IMG/VR virus record: IMGVR_UViG_3300024520_000589
Location: 1-20,604 of that record
Direction: 5' to 3' (one strand)
Origin: a virus
Length of the DNA stretch: 20,604 nucleotides
In this document: positions 7,676-18,869 of the stretch, piece after piece
Layout: each line of letters starts with the position of its first letter
How positions within the stretch are numbered: position 1 is the stretch's first letter
Translations under genes and position numbers: made by a program
Notes under the pieces: generated by a model
Told to the model about the DNA's origin: nothing
The model's database searches: none
Seen by the model: only the letters and a program-made list of their open reading frames with translations

Positions 7676-7899
7676 TGTGGTTAGTTACTGTAATAGTCTG
7701 TTGGATTGAGGTAGATCAATTACAATGTTTTGCGGCAGCTCGAAGTGCCGAACAAGATACTTATTTTGCTACCAAAATGGCTTGTGAACAGAATGCCCGG
7801 TATGGTCGTTTAACCATCATTGAAGAATTTGCCAAACAGGGTGATCGACTGATTTTTCTTAAAACTAATTGTGATAAAGTTTGGGATGAAGCTACTTAA
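7675..7899 (+). CDS. Small Cys-containing protein after the spanins, unknown
   Basis: A 74-residue protein starting in the TAATG junction with Rz1. The first 11 residues are hydrophobic (MWLVTVIVCWI), perhaps a short or atypical signal sequence. Cysteines at residues 9, 18, 37 and 66 could form disulphides if exported. No family is recognised. It is the last gene of the + strand block. Its TAA (7897-7899) overlaps the stop codon of the convergent ATPase gene on the other strand. Confidence 0.55.
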   Translation: MWLVTVIVCWIEVDQLQCFAAARSAEQDTYFATKMACEQNARYGRLTIIEEFAKQGDRLIFLKTNCDKVWDEAT

Positions 7900-9158
7900 T
7901 CTCTTGGTGGGTTAAGCGGAACAAAACAAATACCAAGCCCCTTTTCGGCTTTCTTTCCTATCATTTTCGCACGTTCCATGATTTCGAGTATGCGTACGAT
8001 ATTGTGTGATGGGGTTCGCTCCTGCAAGAACATAATTAACCGGGCTTCCTGAATTGGCTTTTTTCCACCTTTCATATACAGGGTGTAAAGGTGGTGGTAA
8101 AGGTCTTCGATCGTCTGACCGTCGCCGCCCGTTTTCATTGATTTAAAGATGTCAGGCATAAATTCCTCAGCCTCAACCATCCAATCTAGCGCCCGGTGAA
8201 GGTGCTCGATTTCAATGATCAGTTTATCGCTTATGCTCACACTTGCCACCATAGCCAATTTCAATAAATGGGCAGCCCGTCTGGTGTTGTAATGAGCGAG
8301 GCGTGGGTGAGTTGGTTTTGGTGGCTGACCGCCCAAATACCAGCTATCCATAAACTCTTTGGCTTCGGTGGTGAATGAAAATTTTCCGAATAACTCCCCG
8401 ATCTGCTCGAGTCTGTCTAGTAAAACTTTCATCACTTTTGAGTCATCTTCGCGCTCGGTGAATAGGGATGTGAGGGGTTGTTCGCCACTGTAAACAATTA
8501 TGACGCGGGAGAGGAAACCTTGGTCCCAAGCGCCGGGTGGTAGGGTTTCGCGAAGATAACCGGGGGTGCAACCTGCGAAGATGTTAAGATTGGGCCGGTC
8601 TACTTTGATTTTTAAATCGCGGGTTCGGCGGGACTCGGAGTAGCCCTTACCGTCGTACAGGTCTGTGAGCGTGTTCATAAATTCATTTTCATACGCGGGG
8701 AGTAAGACGCCAAGTTCGTTACTGGCGATCAAGAGTGAATTGAATGTGTGGACTGGTGTGGGGTCAAAAGTGCGGACTACCCGGCGTGTAGCTTCGGCAA
8801 GCCTGTCGATAAGCGCCGCCTTGGTAAGTGAACTGTCAGCTACGTGATGTTCTTCCATATCAGCCCATAGAGCGCGGACACGCCAAGTCACCTCGGTTTT
8901 ACCAATGCCGGGCGGGGCGCAGATTACTACGTACAAATTTGGATACAATTCACTCCCTTTGGTCTTTACCCAAACCTTGCGCTCAAGTGCCCCGGCAATC
9001 GCCATGATACCTGCCCACTTGCGAAAAATGGGCGGGGATGTAATACCGGCAGTAGCTTCTTGAAATCCGTCAATCCAATCAGGATAGGTAATGTTTAAGT
9101 CGGGTTTTTTGTTTAGGGGGTTGCCGATCTTCGTTACCTGTCCAGAGTTTTTGGCCAT
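7896..9158 (-). CDS. DUF3987-like P-loop ATPase, probable replication helicase or primase-helicase component
   Basis: A 420-residue protein. The Walker A motif is APPGIGKTE (residues 81-89); a Walker B-like stretch is FNSLLIASNELGVLL (about 139-153), followed by an arginine-rich central part and NIFAGCTPGYLRETLPP. This order (P-loop, 'asnE' strand, then a G-C-T strand) is typical of DUF3987/VirE-type ATPases found beside phage polymerases, which are thought to act as helicases or helicase loaders. The C-terminal 60 residues look like a winged helix (a helix run, then a short hairpin near GKKAEKGLGICF). The start at 9158 overlaps the polymerase end by 80 bases. The ribosome site there is modest (GGAT 8 bases upstream), but no other suitable Met lies before residue 50. 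It is the last gene of the - strand block. Confidence 0.62.
   Translation of the reverse strand: MAKNSGQVTKIGNPLNKKPDLNITYPDWIDGFQEATAGITSPPIFRKWAGIMAIAGALERKVWVKTKGSELYPNLYVVICAPPGIGKTEVTWRVRALWADMEEHHVADSSLTKAALIDRLAEATRRVVRTFDPTPVHTFNSLLIASNELGVLLPAYENEFMNTLTDLYDGKGYSESRRTRDLKIKVDRPNLNIFAGCTPGYLRETLPPGAWDQGFLSRVIIVYSGEQPLTSLFTEREDDSKVMKVLLDRLEQIGELFGKFSFTTEAKEFMDSWYLGGQPPKPTHPRLAHYNTRRAAHLLKLAMVASVSISDKLIIEIEHLHRALDWMVEAEEFMPDIFKSMKTGGDGQTIEDLYHHLYTLYMKGGKKPIQEARLIMFLQERTPSHNIVRILEIMERAKMIGKKAEKGLGICFVPLNPPRD
7935..7960 (+). terminator. Weak candidate terminator for the + strand late block
   Basis: A hairpin AAGCC (7935-7939), 7-base loop, GGCTT (7947-7951) is followed by TTCTTTCC. It lies inside the end of the convergent ATPase gene, since there is no spacer between the two blocks. 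The stem is short and the T run is interrupted. Confidence 0.28.
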
Positions 9159-10665
9159 GCGGATTTATCCATATTCCTGTAGTTTTATCTTTGTAACTCT
9201 TGCCCCAATTAAACCCGGTGGTAGCCTCAAGGGGGACAGAAAATAACCGCCCGCCCTTAAGTTCTTTCGTCACCGTGAGTAATTTTAAAGCTCGAGGAAG
9301 TAATTCTTGAAGCCCGTCAAGGGGGAGTTGAAAGAGGATCGAGTCGTGGACGGGAAGTTGAAGCAAAGCCTCCGGCATCCCATGCCAAAGTTGTAACCAG
9401 CCACGATCAAGCTCTTCCCCGGTGGTAGATTGGGGGTCGTATGCAATTGCAGCCCGCAGAGTTCGCGGGTCTTTGTAGCGGTCGAAGAAAATCCTGCGCC
9501 GCCCAAAGAGGTTGTTAAGGTAGCCGACTGTTTTAAGTTGACGGTAAACCCAACCGTGCCAGTCATCCTTGCTGAGGTCTTTTTGTATGTTGCCGATAAG
9601 GGGAAAGGCGTTGAAATAGCGGGCTTGAAAGTTTTCAATGATACTGGCTTCTGTTTTTGTGTGCATAGCCATTGTTCGAGGTAGTCCATAATAATTTGTC
9701 CCGTGTCCTAATTTCTTTGCCATATCGCGGTAGCTAAGTTCCCGATACGCTTTGCTGTCCGCAATGCTCCGGGCAAGTGTTGCGTCCCAAGGGTCTGGCC
9801 ATTCAAGTTCTTTCCAAGCCATCGAGCAAACGCGGGTGTGAAGATCGCCTGACTCACAGGCATCAAGGTAAGCGCCCGCCTTCTCCGGTCCGTGGCTATC
9901 ATAATAGATTTGCCAAAGTCGCGCTGCAACATTTCGGGCGTCGGCTTGTTCCAGGTCCACGTTAACCATAATGTGGCCGGGGTCAGCTACAAACACACGG
10001 CGAAGGCGATCCTCGACGTTTTGAAGATTGGTACCTGTACCGAATGCGCTGAACTGTGAGGCAAAGCGCCCGGTATCGGTTCCAGCTATGTTGAGGCTGG
10101 TTCGCATCCGACCATCTTTGTCGGCGGACGTTTCTAGAAAGCTGATCTTCTTGCCGAGTATTCGCATAGCTAGGATGTACCGTGCCCAAATCTGAGGATA
10201 GCGGTAGACGGAAAGCCGCTCTAGAGCATCTGCGTTAGTGGTAGGCGCAAAGAAGCCCTGGGCATTTCGCTTTCTAATAGGCTTGAGGCCGAACGTATCG
10301 TAGAAAAGGACTTTAAGCTGAGTGGGTGAGCGCCAGTTGATGGGGTAGCCGAGGATTTTGTCGCAAATTTTATCGAAATTCTTTTGTAGCTGACGTAGTT
10401 CTGAGCGGTATTCGCTGAGTGATTTGTTGAGCGCGTTGAAGTCAATTTTCAGTCCCTTCATGCACATATAGCCTACCGGCGCAAGTTTCGCCATAGCTGT
10501 TTCGTAGGTTTCTTTTACATTGTCTGGCTCATATTTAAGGTCTTCACGGAGCCGGTTGCGAACTTCCAACGTCACACAGCAATCAAGCCCGTTGTAAATC
10601 CAACTCTTGTGATTGGGGGTGAGTTTAGTATTGGCCTTGAGGTTGACCGTGTTGTAGATTTTCAC
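9079..10665 (-). CDS. Family A DNA polymerase, polymerase part of a split gene
   Basis: A 528-residue protein starting with GTG in a GTGA overlap with the DUF1937 gene. The palm and fingers motifs are complete: TDTGRFAS (196-203), motif A VNVDLEQADAR (D237), motif B R313..K317/K318...NYYG (325-327), and motif C VHDS (H440, D441), with Ser where most family A enzymes have Glu. The 3'-5' exonuclease domain is missing except for its last motif, YNGLD (Y24, D28), at the very N-terminus. The rest of that domain sits in the UDG-exonuclease protein encoded at 11958-12968. In SPO1-type polymerases these parts form one chain. The C-terminus extends about 38 residues beyond the usual end (WGKSY) and overlaps the ATPase gene by 80 bases. 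This is the replicative polymerase of the phage. Confidence 0.9.
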   Translation of the reverse strand: MKIYNTVNLKANTKLTPNHKSWIYNGLDCCVTLEVRNRLREDLKYEPDNVKETYETAMAKLAPVGYMCMKGLKIDFNALNKSLSEYRSELRQLQKNFDKICDKILGYPINWRSPTQLKVLFYDTFGLKPIRKRNAQGFFAPTTNADALERLSVYRYPQIWARYILAMRILGKKISFLETSADKDGRMRTSLNIAGTDTGRFASQFSAFGTGTNLQNVEDRLRRVFVADPGHIMVNVDLEQADARNVAARLWQIYYDSHGPEKAGAYLDACESGDLHTRVCSMAWKELEWPDPWDATLARSIADSKAYRELSYRDMAKKLGHGTNYYGLPRTMAMHTKTEASIIENFQARYFNAFPLIGNIQKDLSKDDWHGWVYRQLKTVGYLNNLFGRRRIFFDRYKDPRTLRAAIAYDPQSTTGEELDRGWLQLWHGMPEALLQLPVHDSILFQLPLDGLQELLPRALKLLTVTKELKGGRLFSVPLEATTGFNWGKSYKDKTTGIWINPHGQKLWTGNEDRQPPKQKTRLKHYLS

Positions 10666-11015
10666 GGAAGCATTTCTCCGACTCGCCCGTCGAGGGGATC
10701 GACCATATGTATCGTTTTACCTTGAGCCTCCATGTAAGCCATTTCCGCTTTAATCCCTACACTGGCTTCCCAACCGCCAAGACGCAGTACCCACATTTCA
10801 GAAGCGGCATCCATCATACCCTCGTTGAAAACGATCCAATCAATATGGGCGGTGCCGTGATCTTTTAGCGCGGCAAACGGGTGGCCGTAAGCGATCGGAC
10901 TGAAAATGACTTTGCCTTTGTTAAGGTGGTGGCTGGCGAAATCAACAACGGCGTGATACCGGGCTTCGCGAATTGAGGGCTCGGAATGGGAGTAGGGACT
11001 GGCGAGATAAATCAT
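10662..11015 (-). CDS. DUF1937 protein, nucleoside 2-deoxyribosyltransferase-like
   Basis: A 117-residue protein opening with IYLASPYSH, the signature of DUF1937, a Rossmann-like family close to nucleoside 2-deoxyribosyltransferases. Further conserved parts are an arginine-bearing helix (SIREARYHAV), FSPIAYGHPFA, a DWI(V/x) segment, and the MWVLRLGGWEASVGIKAEM stretch, in which a W-x-x-S-x-G-x-x-x-E pattern matches the catalytic glutamate helix of the fold. It may act on nucleosides or nucleotides in the phage pool, but the substrate is unknown. It lies in the gap of the split polymerase, and its TGA overlaps the polymerase GTG. The start overlaps the stop of the 41-residue gene (ATGA). Confidence 0.7.
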   Translation of the reverse strand: MIYLASPYSHSEPSIREARYHAVVDFASHHLNKGKVIFSPIAYGHPFAALKDHGTAHIDWIVFNEGMMDAASEMWVLRLGGWEASVGIKAEMAYMEAQGKTIHMVDPLDGRVGEMLP

Positions 11016-11137
11016 ACTATATGCCCCGTGTTGTAATCGAGGACTGTTAAAGCTTCTTTAATAGCTACCACAGCATCTTGTCTGATATAGCATAGTCGAT
11101 CTCGGGTTAGTGGAAAAGTTACCATTTTTAAAGTCAT
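11012..11137 (-). CDS. 41-residue protein, unknown
   Basis: A frame of 41 codons filling the space between two neighbours, with ATGA overlaps at both ends (11137-11134 with the upstream gene, 11015-11012 with DUF1937). This fit is the main argument that it is a gene. The peptide reads as a short basic start (TFPLTRDRLCYIRQ) followed by one amphipathic helix (DAVVAIKEALTVL). There is no clear ribosome site of its own, so it would be translated by coupling. No family is recognised. Confidence 0.5.
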   Translation of the reverse strand: MTLKMVTFPLTRDRLCYIRQDAVVAIKEALTVLDYNTGHIV

Positions 11138-11406
11138 ACTGACATCCTTTGTTGGGCGGGGAGATTAAACTCCCGTTGAATGTTGAGCGGGAAACTGACG
11201 TACCAAAATTCGCGCGGAACTTCAGTAGATTTTATTGCATTTCCAAGGATAACCGCCTGGGCGTGGAAGGCGGCTTGTCGCGGTGAGTGCGATTTGGCGA
11301 GTTCTTTCATATCTAAATGAACCTCGATTTCAAAATAACCTCCCTCAGCCGGATTACCCGGAGTATGCTTTTCGATTATCATGGTTTTTAAGGTGGAAAA
11401 AAGCAT
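11134..11406 (-). CDS. Hypothetical protein (90 residues)
   Basis: I choose the ATG at 11406 because GGAG lies 9 bases upstream and the preceding gene stops at 11408; a start 33 bases further upstream is possible. The protein begins with a beta-like segment (TLKTMIIEKH), then a Gly/Pro turn, a strand (YFEIEVHL), a helix with conserved-looking histidines (SPRQAAFHAQAVILGNAI), and a C-terminal strand (REFWYVSFPL). The compact alpha/beta pattern suggests a small folded protein. I do not recognise the family. It is the third gene in the polymerase gap. Confidence 0.6.
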   Translation of the reverse strand: MLFSTLKTMIIEKHTPGNPAEGGYFEIEVHLDMKELAKSHSPRQAAFHAQAVILGNAIKSTEVPREFWYVSFPLNIQREFNLPAQQRMSV

Positions 11407-11407
11407 G

Positions 11408-11593
11408 TTAGGGCTCCAATGTGGTGATCCGAGTTTCATGATCAGCTATGGTTATATCAATTGCATCTATTTCAGACTCAGTAGCTTCAATCCGCTCAAT
11501 GTTTTCATGTGTGCGGGTTTGTACTGCGGACATTTCCGCAATTAATTTAGTTACTTGCGTTCTCAGTTGGCGTATATCGGACTCATTTGACAT
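11408..11593 (-). CDS. Small coiled-coil protein (61 residues)
   Basis: A 61-residue, almost wholly helical, acidic protein with a heptad pattern over most of its length (IRQLRTQVTKLIAEM, then IERIEATESEIDAIDI). Proteins of this kind usually form dimers or trimers. Its start overlaps the end of the preceding basic protein by 11 bases and it stops one base before the next gene. No DNA-binding or enzymatic motif is visible. It is one of five small genes lying between the two parts of the polymerase. Confidence 0.55.
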   Translation of the reverse strand: MSNESDIRQLRTQVTKLIAEMSAVQTRTHENIERIEATESEIDAIDITIADHETRITTLEP

Positions 11594-11954
11594 TGTTAGC
11601 TACCTTTTTCTGGCGTTTGGCCAACTCCATTGCACGGCGACCAAATTCGGCGGGGGTAATGCGGTGCTGTTTGGTGACTTTTCGTGTAAGCGCCCGGTTT
11701 TGTTGGCGCGTGGGGGGCCATGTATGATCCATCCGGGCGTGTGCCGCCCGCAAGACTTCAAGCCGTTCTATGGCCCGGATATTGGCCGGGGTCAATCGCT
11801 TGGGGCCATACCTTTTCTGACCAAATTGGGCCATAACAACTGAGGCTTGAGCATGTGGTTTCCGGGGTGACCAGTGCACCATCCAAGGTTGCGGTTTTTT
11901 CGAGCGGTTTTTGCGTTGCTTGAACCACTGGCTGAATTTTTCTAGAAGTTTCAC
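11583..11954 (-). CDS. Highly basic protein (123 residues), possible nucleic-acid binder
   Basis: It starts at GTG (11954); the ribosome site AAGGA overlaps the stop of the UDG-exonuclease gene. The protein is very rich in Arg and Lys: a basic N-terminal helix (KFSQWFKQRKNRSKKPQPW), a central segment with YGPKRLTPANIRAIERLEVL, and a second similar segment near the end (ITPAEFGRRAMELAKRQKK). The two (L/I)TPAxxxRxxE-like helices look like a repeated small helical motif. Binding to DNA or RNA is likely from the charge alone. It is the first gene after the break in the polymerase, where a homing endonuclease would be expected if one had caused the split. I see no HNH, GIY-YIG or LAGLIDADG motif. 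Confidence 0.55.
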   Translation of the reverse strand: MKLLEKFSQWFKQRKNRSKKPQPWMVHWSPRKPHAQASVVMAQFGQKRYGPKRLTPANIRAIERLEVLRAAHARMDHTWPPTRQQNRALTRKVTKQHRITPAEFGRRAMELAKRQKKVANNVK

Positions 11955-11957
11955 AGT

Positions 11958-12968
11958 TTATCCTTCCGCTCTAAAGTTATCTTGGTCAGTACGCATGAAT
12001 TTCCAACTCGGTTCGTTGGTATAAATCGAGCCGAGGAAGCCGAGACTCTTTTCCATCTCGGGGTACATTGCGTGGTGAAGTAGCATAGTGTCATCTTCAA
12101 CCACCGGACAGGCGATTTTCATTTTTGCCCAAAGGTACTGAAGGTCGTATGAGAAGTTTTGGCCTACAAGACCCCTATACGCGAGAAGACGACGAACCCA
12201 TTCCCAGGCTTGTCGTTCGAGTTCCGGGGTGGCCCAATAACTGCCGGGTTTATCGTGGTTATAAAAGGGGATTACAAGTGCGCGATCTTCGGTAGGTGCG
12301 AAACCGATTTCGGTAATAGTTTCCTGCTTGGTTTCAATATCGGCGGATAGGACCTCACAATCCTTAATATATTTGTTGAAAAAGGTTTCAATATCTTCGA
12401 TGGTTTCAGCTATGTGGATGAAACGTTGCGGTCGGCGGACTTCTGGGAAGGTACTTTCCTTGAGTGCTTTGGATACATCGGCTATGAGGATGGGCCGGAG
12501 CTTCCACGATCTGAGAACGGCTGATGGGTGGTATGTGGGAAGGATTTTATGCTCACCATCATGGGCGAGGATGGGAGTGCCCCGGTACTTTTTGATCCCC
12601 ATATATTTGCCTAGTGCCCAAAGAGGGGTGGCACCGAGGGCTAGAATTACATTGGGGTTCTGATCATATACCTCTTGATGAAGGCGTTCAAGTTCGGGAG
12701 TGTATCTGTTGTGAACGTAAAGTTTATTGGCTAGGCGTGGGTAGCCTGGAATGGCTTCGGTCTGGGGTCCGTTAAGCGAGGAAAGTTTATTGCCTACCGG
12801 TTGAAAATTGAAAACATTTGTTAGGTAACAATCGCGCCGATCGATCCCTACAGTGCGAAGGATGGAATTTAGGACTTGCCCGGCTCCACTTGCTTGAGTG
12901 AAGGGGCGACCTTCCTCAACATCTTGTCGGGACCAAGCCTCGCCGACTATCATAATGTCGCAGGTCAT
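11958..12968 (-). CDS. UDG-like domain fused to 3'-5' exonuclease domain (N-terminal half of a split SPO1-type polymerase)
   Basis: A 336-residue protein if started at the ATG at 12968, which forms an ATGA overlap with the upstream gene; a start 45 bases earlier is possible. Residues 1-165 resemble family 4 uracil-DNA glycosylases: VGEAWSRQDVEEGRPF (motif A, where GEAPG is usual), NVILALGATPLWAL, and PTYHPSAVLR (motif B, H147). The iron-sulphur cysteines of family 4 are absent. Residues 200-330 are a DnaQ-like exonuclease: Exo I SADIET (D210, E212) and Exo II GQNFSYD (N271, D275), then SLGFLGSIYTNEPSW. The chain stops before Exo III, which is found at the start of the separate polymerase protein. 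Domain order equals that of the SPO1 polymerase. The protein probably proofreads together with the polymerase subunit. Confidence 0.85.
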   Translation of the reverse strand: MTCDIMIVGEAWSRQDVEEGRPFTQASGAGQVLNSILRTVGIDRRDCYLTNVFNFQPVGNKLSSLNGPQTEAIPGYPRLANKLYVHNRYTPELERLHQEVYDQNPNVILALGATPLWALGKYMGIKKYRGTPILAHDGEHKILPTYHPSAVLRSWKLRPILIADVSKALKESTFPEVRRPQRFIHIAETIEDIETFFNKYIKDCEVLSADIETKQETITEIGFAPTEDRALVIPFYNHDKPGSYWATPELERQAWEWVRRLLAYRGLVGQNFSYDLQYLWAKMKIACPVVEDDTMLLHHAMYPEMEKSLGFLGSIYTNEPSWKFMRTDQDNFRAEG

Positions 12969-13440: not shown

Positions 13441-14766
13441 TTATGTTTCTTCCATTCCTTGTCTGAGATTTTCTCGCGCAGAGTTTCCAAATTCCGGATC
13501 AAGCTCAAGCCCAAGACTAGTACTTGCTCCAAGCGCGTCAGCCACTCGGATAGCGTTTCCGCTTCCTGCTGTTGGGTCGAATACTCGGGAGTGTTCATCA
13601 CAGATCATCCTCATAAAATGGGTTAAGACTGGTCGGGGTTTTTCCGACGTGTGAAATTCCCGCGTAGTGGGAGCTGCAATAGAGTTGGCAACGGCCCGGA
13701 CAATCTTACGATCCCCCCTGGACGCAAAGAGGGCTGTTTCATAAGTTCGTCTGGGTCCACGGTTAGCATCTGGGATAATTCCCGCATTGTCAGATTTGGA
13801 CCAAATGAGGGGGAAACGCGATACCGACCAGCCGCCAGCCTCGAGTTGCACGATTGTCTCATTATAGTAGTCCATCGAGAACCAAAAGATAAGATGCGCT
13901 GATGGGTCAATGAAATTATCTCCGTGATTGCAAAAGGTTTCCAGTAGGTTGAAGTAGTCTTCTTTCGTGTCGGAATAACTGCCGGTAGTTCCGCGAGCAG
14001 ACTGACCAGATTTGTCGCCAACGCCTACCCCGTAAGGAAAGTCACAATGAATAAGGTTAAAAGGCTCCCCGCGATAATCCCGAGCCCAAAGATGAAAATC
14101 AACTTCTTGTATGACTGCGCGATTTCGGGGAGTTTCAGTAAGTTGTCCCTGTCCTTGATCCCTAGGTGAAGTTCCTTCAGGTATTTCCGCGCCAGTTTCT
14201 CCCAATATTTTTCCAATTTCTTCTCCGAGATTTCGTTTAGCATTGGCTTGTTTCCTTTCCGCGATGCGTTGGGATGCGTTGAGGGCTTTGGAATATTTAT
14301 CCGCGCCCTGAACGATCTCATTATCCATGTGGGCTTCGACCAGCAGGTGGTTGCGAACTACCCCGGAACTAACTCCCATGGCCTCGGCGGTTTGCACCGG
14401 GGTCCAATCGGGGTTATCTTTCCCGAGAAGCCGATGATACTCTGCAATCGCGCGAACCTTATCGTCCCAGGCAAGTTCGCTCCGTTTAACGTTTTCTTCC
14501 AGTTCGATTAAATAGAGTTCATCTTTTGACAGGTCCTCCACGTACTGAAAGGAAACCGGGTTGAGGCCAAGTTGAACACAGGCGGTAAGGCGGCGTTCTC
14601 CGGCAACCAGATTGTACTGCTTGTCGATTACAGGCGGGTTGATCAGGCCGACGTTGCGAATGCTTTCCGCGAGTTCGTCTATGTCGCGGAGTTCAGTTCG
14701 TTGGCGGTTTTCCCTGTCAATGTGAATGAGGGCGGGGTCCAGTTGGACAAAGTGGCCGGATGTCAT
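13441..14766 (-). CDS. ParB-like domain fused to a beta-class DNA methyltransferase
   Basis: The start at 14766 has GGAGG upstream and an ATGA overlap with the DUF6378 gene, giving 441 residues. The N-terminal 110 residues or so are a ParB/Srx domain: IDELAESIRNVGLINPPVI, LVAGERRLTAC (the GERR box) and ENVKRSELAWDDKV. A helix-turn-helix follows (TPVQTAEAMGVSSGVVRNHL). The C-terminal half is an amino-methyltransferase with motif IV first, LIHCDFPYG (D-F-P-Y where D-P-P-Y is usual), and motif I last, VFDPTAGSGNAIRVADAL, preceded by HTSEKPRPVLTHFMRM. This order marks the beta class, which methylates N6 of adenine or N4 of cytosine using S-adenosylmethionine. It may protect phage DNA from host nucleases; the target sequence is unknown. 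No partner restriction enzyme is in the window, so it looks like an orphan methylase. Confidence 0.85.
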   Translation of the reverse strand: MTSGHFVQLDPALIHIDRENRQRTELRDIDELAESIRNVGLINPPVIDKQYNLVAGERRLTACVQLGLNPVSFQYVEDLSKDELYLIELEENVKRSELAWDDKVRAIAEYHRLLGKDNPDWTPVQTAEAMGVSSGVVRNHLLVEAHMDNEIVQGADKYSKALNASQRIAERKQANAKRNLGEEIGKILGETGAEIPEGTSPRDQGQGQLTETPRNRAVIQEVDFHLWARDYRGEPFNLIHCDFPYGVGVGDKSGQSARGTTGSYSDTKEDYFNLLETFCNHGDNFIDPSAHLIFWFSMDYYNETIVQLEAGGWSVSRFPLIWSKSDNAGIIPDANRGPRRTYETALFASRGDRKIVRAVANSIAAPTTREFHTSEKPRPVLTHFMRMICDEHSRVFDPTAGSGNAIRVADALGASTSLGLELDPEFGNSARENLRQGMEET

Positions 14767-15236
14767 TCTTTTTCCTCCGTTGCGCATTCGAATGCGATCC
14801 CAGCGTAAGCCGCCATATCTTCGTAAGTGTCAGCTTTGACTTTACCTGAGAATGTCCGGGCCATTTTTTGTAAGACGTTAAGATGAGCTACATCTTGAGA
14901 AGTGATCATACCAGTAAGCTGTCCGATAGTCTGTCCAGCATATTTCGACTCAAGATAAGCATCCCAAAGCACAGCGATGTTGCCAAGGTTTTCGGTCGGC
15001 GGGCCGTACTCAAGGTCTCGATCCCCGCAGGTGTGTTTGATGGCGTTGTTGAGAATGTCTTCGCGGGTGTGAGCTTGGTCTTCCCACTTAGCGATATAGT
15101 GGGTAACTTCCGCGTGAGCTTCTTCGCGGGTTCGTACACGGGCAACTTGTTCACCGTTCCAATAGACAGCCCAAGGGGCTACTTTACGTGGGGAGTCTAA
15201 TTCTTCGATTATTTCCCAAGAGGGCATTTTGATCAT
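14763..15236 (-). CDS. DUF6378 protein
   Basis: The ATG at 15236 is chosen because GGAG lies 7 bases upstream (157 residues). Residues 1-45 form a small alpha/beta part (SPRKVAPWAVYWNGEQVARV). The remainder matches the DUF6378 pattern that I know from phage genomes: REDILNNAIKHTCGDRDLEYG, then NLGNIAVLWDAYL, and DVAHLNVLQKMARTFSGK followed by DTYEDMAAYAGIAFE. The helical arrangement with paired acidic residues recalls MazG-like nucleotide pyrophosphohydrolases, but I cannot show a metal site, so any enzyme role is inference. It sits between the ssDNA-binding protein and the methyltransferase. Confidence 0.68.
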   Translation of the reverse strand: MIKMPSWEIIEELDSPRKVAPWAVYWNGEQVARVRTREEAHAEVTHYIAKWEDQAHTREDILNNAIKHTCGDRDLEYGPPTENLGNIAVLWDAYLESKYAGQTIGQLTGMITSQDVAHLNVLQKMARTFSGKVKADTYEDMAAYAGIAFECATEEKE

Positions 15237-18314: not shown

Positions 18315-18516
18315 CTATCTTCTCCGGTTTGCGGACAATCCATAGGTGGATGTCAGGTTGCTTGGGACTCGGCAGAAACGTAAGCGGTTCAAAGTCCGGG
18401 TCACTCTTGCGCAGCGGGTAGAGTTTTTGGCGCAAGAGGACCGGGTCTGTGGTGCTGACGATTATGCCGAGCGGTGTGTTGATAGCTTCGTAAAGCAAGT
18501 CAAGAAGGGGGTTCAC
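18301..18516 (-). CDS. Small protein (71 residues), unknown
   Basis: It starts at GTG in a GTGA overlap with the HIRAN gene and overlaps the next gene by 14 bases. An N-terminal helix (PLLDLLYEAINT) is followed by a strand (LGIIVSTT), a second helix (PVLLRQKLYPLRK) and a strand with a tryptophan (DIHLWIVRKP). This compact alpha/beta pattern suggests a folded domain. I have seen similar short proteins in phage early regions but can give no family name. Confidence 0.55.
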   Translation of the reverse strand: MNPLLDLLYEAINTPLGIIVSTTDPVLLRQKLYPLRKSDPDFEPLTFLPSPKQPDIHLWIVRKPEKIVAET

Positions 18517-18869
18517 AACCCTGCTTCATCCTGTGGGTGGCTTTCGTTACCTTCTCCGCGCATCTCAAGAACGCTCACGAAGGGGTATATTGTTTGCCGG
18601 TAAGTTTCCAGCCGTTCAACGGTGACGGTGAATTCCATTCCCTCGTCAATCTGGGGGCCGATCCAAGCAGCGTCATCGGCGTTGATATAACCCATATGGA
18701 AGCCGTTCCCGCCGGGGGTTAAGATTTTGACCGCGTTGGCGTCATATAGGTTATCTGTCTCCCGCTCATAAAGCAGGACATCACCGGGCTGAAGGGCGGC
18801 AGCGTATGCTTTGGCGTGTTCGCCTCGAAAGTGCATTCCGACAATTTTAACGTTGGAGTAATTGGGCAT
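18513..18869 (-). CDS. Stand-alone HIRAN-domain protein
   Basis: A 118-residue protein that is nearly all one HIRAN domain: VKIVGMHFRG at the start, LQPGDVLLYERETDNLYDANAV in the middle (the L-x-x-E-x-x-N-x-Y-D-x-x-A-V signature), and GFHMGYINADDAAWI near residue 60-74. HIRAN domains are known from SNF2-type helicases such as HLTF, where they bind the 3' end of single-stranded DNA at stalled forks. Bacterial and phage versions are often short and stand alone. GAGG lies about 9 bases before the ATG. It could recruit a repair or fork-remodelling enzyme to phage forks; a UvrD-like helicase lies upstream in the same block. Confidence 0.8.
   Translation of the reverse strand: MPNYSNVKIVGMHFRGEHAKAYAAALQPGDVLLYERETDNLYDANAVKILTPGGNGFHMGYINADDAAWIGPQIDEGMEFTVTVERLETYRQTIYPFVSVLEMRGEGNESHPQDEAGL

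Follow-up and report, generated by a model that had tools for sequence, protein, structure and literature searches.

Gene organization of the polymerase locus

The window, by which we mean the whole stretch of viral DNA analysed here (20,604 nt), carries on its minus strand two genes for the parts of a DNA polymerase. The gene for the N half starts with an ATG at 12968 and stops at 11958, and the gene for the C half starts with a GTG at 10665 and stops at 9079. Five small genes, hereafter called cargo, lie between them. The features are listed from the N half to the C half.

11958..12968, minus strand: N-half polymerase gene, 336 aa, with a UDG-like domain and the Exo I/Exo II part of a 3'-5' exonuclease
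12339..12341, minus strand: Exo I catalytic Asp, D210 of DIETK, N chain; D and E invariant in 110/110 listed split loci
12144..12146, minus strand: Exo II catalytic Asp, D275 of GQNFSYD, N chain; N and D invariant in 110/110 listed loci
10666..11957, minus strand: junction interval between the halves, 1292 bp, containing the five cargo genes
11583..11954, minus strand: cargo gene 1, basic, 123 aa, of no known family; absent from the other gaps listed
11408..11593, minus strand: cargo gene 2, coiled-coil-like, 61 aa; absent from the other gaps listed
11134..11406, minus strand: cargo gene 3, 90 aa; relatives in nine other gaps among the matches listed
11012..11137, minus strand: cargo gene 4, 41 aa; no relatives in the other gaps listed
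10662..11015, minus strand: cargo gene 5, DUF1937, nucleoside 2-deoxyribosyltransferase-like, 117 aa (Pfam 1e-16)
9079..10665, minus strand: C-half polymerase gene (family A), 528 aa, with a leader of about 23 aa, the Exo III helix, thumb, palm, and fingers
10582..10596, minus strand: Exo III motif YNGLD, Y24 and D28 of the C half; Y, N, and D invariant in 110/110 listed loci

From the N gene to the C gene, the joins are a 3-base gap, an 11-base overlap, a 1-base gap, and three 4-base overlaps. The frames agree with a preliminary description of this DNA, which reported five tightly joined small genes (123, 61, 90, and 41 aa, and DUF1937 of 117 aa) between the halves. That description also took the tidy junctions as an argument against a recent random insertion; tight packing of this kind is simply usual for phage genes.

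Three other features of the window were observed. The longest frame of a DUF3987/primase gene (7896-9158) overlaps the final 80 bases of the polymerase C half, and its real start is probably further in. A ParB N-terminal domain fused to an N6/N4 DNA methyltransferase is encoded at 13441-14787, and this gene is near the polymerase in several relatives. The replication region also encodes a small stand-alone HIRAN-domain protein (18513-18869; Pfam 4e-13).

Domain identity and position of the break

Pfam detected a UDG-superfamily domain on the N half (UDG, 7.3e-20) and a family A polymerase on the C half (DNA_pol_A, 6.6e-25), in which motifs A, B, and C are present. The earlier reading of an N gene with UDG-like and DnaQ-like domains and a separate family A polymerase gene, with five small genes between them, is confirmed. 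In the PHROG family phrog_17 (phage DNA polymerase), the N half matched profile positions 482-789 and the C half positions 807-1238. By this profile match, the two halves are consecutive parts of one family, phrog_17, and would jointly make up one ordinary enzyme. SPO1-like polymerases, as the preliminary description stated, hold these domains in one chain and in the same order.

The break was located by alignment with the single chains of Microcystis phage Mel-JY34, phage ctMlz233, and Desulfofustis phage MD01. It falls between Exo II (GQNFSYD, N chain) and Exo III (YNGLD, C chain), inside the exonuclease domain. The motifs Exo I, II, and III of the DnaQ-like exonuclease are all present but are divided over two chains. 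The preliminary description had placed the break between domains; the alignment moves it into the exonuclease and puts Exo III on the polymerase chain.

SPO1 gp31, PaBG gp205, and the Mel-JY34 polymerase (phrog_17) resemble the window pair in having the same three domains, order, and catalytic motifs, and the neighbouring genes in the roughly 44 kb relatives match as well. However, SPO1-type polymerases are one chain, in SPO1 with a spliced group I intron, whereas the UDG-exo-PolA enzyme of the window lies on two genes 1.3 kb apart and is cut inside the exonuclease.

Distribution of the split polymerase

IMG/VR was scanned with a four-sequence alignment of each half, as single window proteins matched two relatives only. 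In at least 140 loci from IMG/VR and GenBank (at least 120 distinct, including the window and Caulobacter phage Kuura), both halves were separate genes with the same break. The scans found no one-chain version of the halves among the IMG/VR loci listed, and where only one half was seen among the matches listed, it was near a contig end. Since split sequences supplied the queries, it is the tree, with close single-chain relatives outside, that supports the claim of one clade. A maximum-likelihood tree of 97 polymerases placed the split rows together in one clade (60/60; SH-aLRT 100), which requires one change, and single-chain relatives branched outside the clade. The earliest-branching split rows were Kuura, L008, L160, and L076, and all four have cargo. 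The tree suggests that the split had a single origin at the base of this clade. The split is old and stable and seems to be universal in a large, widely sampled, and mostly uncultured phage clade. The search for relatives proposed in the preliminary description returned single-chain relatives as well as the same split in at least 119 other distinct loci, with other cargo or none; the break is therefore no product of chance.

The position of the break was constant in the listed split loci. The N chain ends about 15 aa past an invariant Trp-Lys, and the C chain typically starts 19-26 aa upstream of YNGLD. Among the matches listed, the gap between the halves ranged from -4 to 5080 bp (median 522), and 11 loci had a gap of -4 to +4 bp. 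In locus L029, a single in-frame TAA parts the halves, and an ATG follows immediately.

Kuura, an isolated infectious podophage, is a cultured member of the clade (PMC9959647). Its genes 029/028/027/026 show the same split at the same site, with two other genes in the gap. The N half of Kuura is annotated merely as a hypothetical protein, and the passages of PMC9959647 consulted do not mention the split.

Cargo genes between the halves

Among the matches listed, cargo reading frames were present in 104 loci and absent in 15. DUF1937 was the commonest cargo: of the 46 loci that have it, 45 place it directly upstream of the C half. Other cargo included the DUF7768 family (14 loci), KTSC (14), HNH_3 (7), and MazG (5). 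By Pfam, DUF1937 is close to the nucleoside 2-deoxyribosyltransferase family, and a weak match to the same protein suggests a similar position for DUF7768. Nucleotide-metabolism enzymes are therefore frequent as cargo, although not required. The window's genes of 123, 61, and 41 aa are unrelated to those in the other listed gaps, while its DUF1937 and 90-aa genes recur.

On the tree, cargo presence needs 9 changes and DUF1937 needs 8; the junction thus gains and loses genes repeatedly. In Kuura and L008, which are among the earliest branches, the cargo is not DUF1937. Pfam and PHROG found no homing endonuclease among the window's five cargo genes; HNH_3 occurs in 7 of the relatives listed.

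By far the largest cargo was observed in one contig, L012 (3269-7641), where the gap spans 5 kb and includes two large reading frames (675 and 782 aa). They have no Pfam matches. They possibly encode tail or spike proteins, and the contig is perhaps a chimeric assembly.

Conservation and inheritance of the halves

In all 110 complete loci listed, Exo I D/E, Exo II N/D, and Exo III Y/D were invariant, as were the D of polymerase motif A, the R/K of motif B, and the H/D of motif C. This catalytic set, divided yet invariant, is the strongest single argument for the assembly of the halves. Median dN/dS on close pairs was 0.081 for the N half and 0.070 for the C half, and most pairs had values near 0.1 or lower for each half; purifying selection evidently acts on both. 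Of the 119 loci listed, 77 have a Shine-Dalgarno-like site ahead of the C half, compared with 19% of random positions.

Pairwise distances of the exonuclease part of the N chain correlated with those of the C chain (r 0.59-0.70) to an extent similar to that of the two C-chain parts with each other (r 0.58). The UDG part was poorly correlated with the remainder (r 0.33-0.41). Within the N chain (window 11958-12968), the UDG-like part is also out of step with the exonuclease part (distance correlation 0.33), and the UDG motif region of L029 appears degenerate. The UDG part may have undergone recombination or relaxed constraint. A search for swapping of halves between phages gave no good evidence of it, as the C-half tree contradicts only 2 of the 14 well-supported groupings of the N half; the co-inheritance of N and C could also be explained by linkage alone.

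A second intact polymerase gene had been named in advance as a finding that would speak against the two-subunit reading. In 25 genome-size records of 42-52 kb, Kuura among them, we found one PolA gene each, namely the C half, and no PolB or PolC; the window itself is a 20.6 kb fragment. The host polymerase could perform replication, which would leave the conserved active sites without explanation. A scan of genome contigs gave one low-coverage contig in a Phycisphaerae bin, which is unusable as a host assignment.

Predicted structures

The window N half alone was modelled by AlphaFold2 with a pLDDT of 91.4 and a pTM of 0.85, apart from a disordered tail. Its fold matches family 4 UDG/UdgX and Thermotoga maritima UDG in the first part, and the Klenow exonuclease and ExnV1 in the second. 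The L029 halves, with the stop read as Gln, gave one continuous polymerase fold (pLDDT 92.8, pTM 0.90), in which disorder within the fold was confined to residues 309-319 around the join, and which best matched Klenow/Pol I structures over 600-odd columns. As a read-through fusion, this model shows that the halves complete one fold and scores no interface of free chains. In fold alignment A4, MAFFT drags the last ~26 N-half residues across the join, and the details of the join are unreliable in that model. The leader of the C half contains a recurring h-I-I-x-T segment, predicted as a short strand (residues 321-324). We guess that this strand might pair with the N chain.

Other breaks in the same polymerase family

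Breaks were also found outside the split clade. In L192 (3208-3260), a member of the single-chain clade, the same loop contains a stop that is closely preceded by GGAGG and closely followed by a new ATG, and there is no insert or cargo. This is apparently a separate, cargo-free split at the identical site; it is known from one contig, and a sequencing error is possible. L192 suggests that no insertion is needed for a split. In Vibrio phage ABTNL-3 (L002:4956-8090), the same polymerase type is cut in the palm by one gene of 184 aa, PVS_28, which has no Pfam match and is unassigned to a family. In phage ctLwi270 (L163:1727-4364), the UDG-exo-pol gene is broken where the exonuclease gives way to the thumb. 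A small zinc-ribbon-like reading frame lies between the two parts, and this is a third break position in the polymerase family.

Discussion

We propose that the two genes encode obligatory subunits of one replicative family A polymerase of the UDG-exonuclease-polymerase type, with a composite proofreading site, and we put the probability of this reading at about 0.8. In the N subunit, the UDG-like domain would be joined to the larger part of the exonuclease fold, including Exo I and Exo II, and the C subunit, beginning about 23 residues ahead of Exo III, would carry the polymerase. The chains would be made separately and dock non-covalently, and the proofreading site would be assembled in trans from the Exo I Asp/Glu and Exo II Asp of the N chain and the Exo III Tyr/Asp of the C chain. 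After one split at the base of the clade, the gene junction would have become a place of gain and loss of small accessory genes. The preliminary description had also concluded that the polymerase works as two subunits; this most likely holds, as the halves jointly match single-chain relatives and no second polymerase was found in the 25 genome-size relatives.

Other explanations of the present state were weighed against this reading. An assembly error, a frameshift, or a decaying gene might be suspected, as the window is one virus contig of 20.6 kb. However, the split is common to at least 120 distinct loci from many metagenomes and to a cultured phage, and these independent occurrences refute an assembly error; decay is opposed by the dN/dS values on both halves. 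We give this explanation practically no credence. Rejoining of the halves into one chain by a self-splicing intron, a split intein, or other splicing deserves more thought, since introns and inteins have a preference for phage polymerase genes. SPO1 gene 31, a relative, has a group I intron, a split intein was reported for MIJ3 PolB (PMC6892783), an intron was proposed for the split PolA of OM43 phages (PMC10580990), and HNH genes occur in 7 gaps among the matches listed. Nevertheless, splicing is very unlikely here: Rfam matched no intron RNA in the window or 12 relatives, Pfam found no intein domain on either half, and the gaps are occupied by reading frames. The 11 listed loci with gaps of -4 to +4 bp leave no room for any intron, and the C half begins with a start codon of its own, which is often accompanied by a Shine-Dalgarno site. 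The split-intein form is also unfit, with the N chain ending about 15 aa past the last conserved pair and the C chain starting about 23 aa before Exo III.

The halves might instead act independently, one as a free UDG/exonuclease and the other as a polymerase that lacks proofreading. A PolA-related stand-alone exonuclease known from a viral metagenome, ExnV1, is soluble and folded alone (PMC9629493), and our N half was modelled well on its own. However, ExnV1 holds all three Exo motifs, which the window N half does not, and selection would not keep the Exo III Y/D of the C chain and the Exo I/II residues of the N chain invariant in 110/110 listed loci if the sites were unjoined. Independence is therefore improbable, if slightly less so than splicing. 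A bolder though unlikely reading is that the split is adaptive. Under the two-subunit reading, the proofreading site exists only in the N+C complex, so the ratio or timing of the subunits could set the level of proofreading and uracil handling, and the cargo, chiefly DUF1937, might tune this ratio or act at the fork.

How the split arose is a separate question. According to the preliminary description, a seamless set of genes was built into an ancestral gene that had been opened. The insertion of genes into a single-chain gene, giving a two-subunit polymerase, is compatible with the present function proposed above and is a tentative candidate for the origin, with the odds somewhat against it. 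The outgroups are single-chain relatives with matching neighbours (methylase/ParB, polymerase, and DUF3987/primase), the earliest-branching split rows (Kuura, L008, L160, and L076) all have cargo, and HNH genes, which can act as homing endonucleases, lie in some gaps. On the other hand, the same break occurs across the clade in at least 120 distinct loci with cargo from none to 5 kb, so the split cannot be due to the window's five-gene set; the break predates that set, and the cargo varies between lineages. Cargo presence changes 9 times on the tree, the gaps of Kuura and L008 are without DUF1937, and L192, which belongs to the single-chain clade, has a split at this site without an insert. 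The first event may have been the insertion of something other than DUF1937. The window split is independent of any mobile element in the window.

Split phage polymerases are already known. In T4-like phages 25 and 44RR (gp43A/gp43B) and in Aeh1 (NrdA), a replication or nucleotide enzyme is likewise encoded by two genes; gp43A and gp43B of phage 25 co-purify and polymerise, and the split NrdA of Aeh1 is functional (PMC2988022). In contrast to the window pair, these are a family B polymerase or a reductase, the gap holds a homing endonuclease or untranslated sequence, and single phages are concerned. In OM43 phages MEP401/MEP402, PolA is split in most of the MEP401 type by a cut in the polymerase domain, with an intron suspected, and, unlike in the window pair, the exonuclease is intact (PMC10580990); the cut in Vibrio phage ABTNL-3 resembles this one. 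The split Pol III alpha of Group 2.2 jumbo phages also has its catalytic core on two proteins with probable reassembly, but belongs to another polymerase family, is encoded by distant genes, and does not involve the proofreading site (PMC7824862). We found no description of this split site, its scale, or its cargo turnover in the open-licence papers searched. In the present clade the cut runs through the proofreading site and is fixed.

Annotation misses these phages because their N half is labelled hypothetical and their C half resembles a truncated polymerase. Earlier split replicative phage polymerases were mainly described as isolated cases linked to mobile endonucleases or suspected introns. 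With a cut through the catalytic centre, it can be asked directly how two proteins keep and regulate one proofreading site, and the gap, in which the cargo changes, provides a natural experiment on gene insertion between the parts of an essential enzyme.
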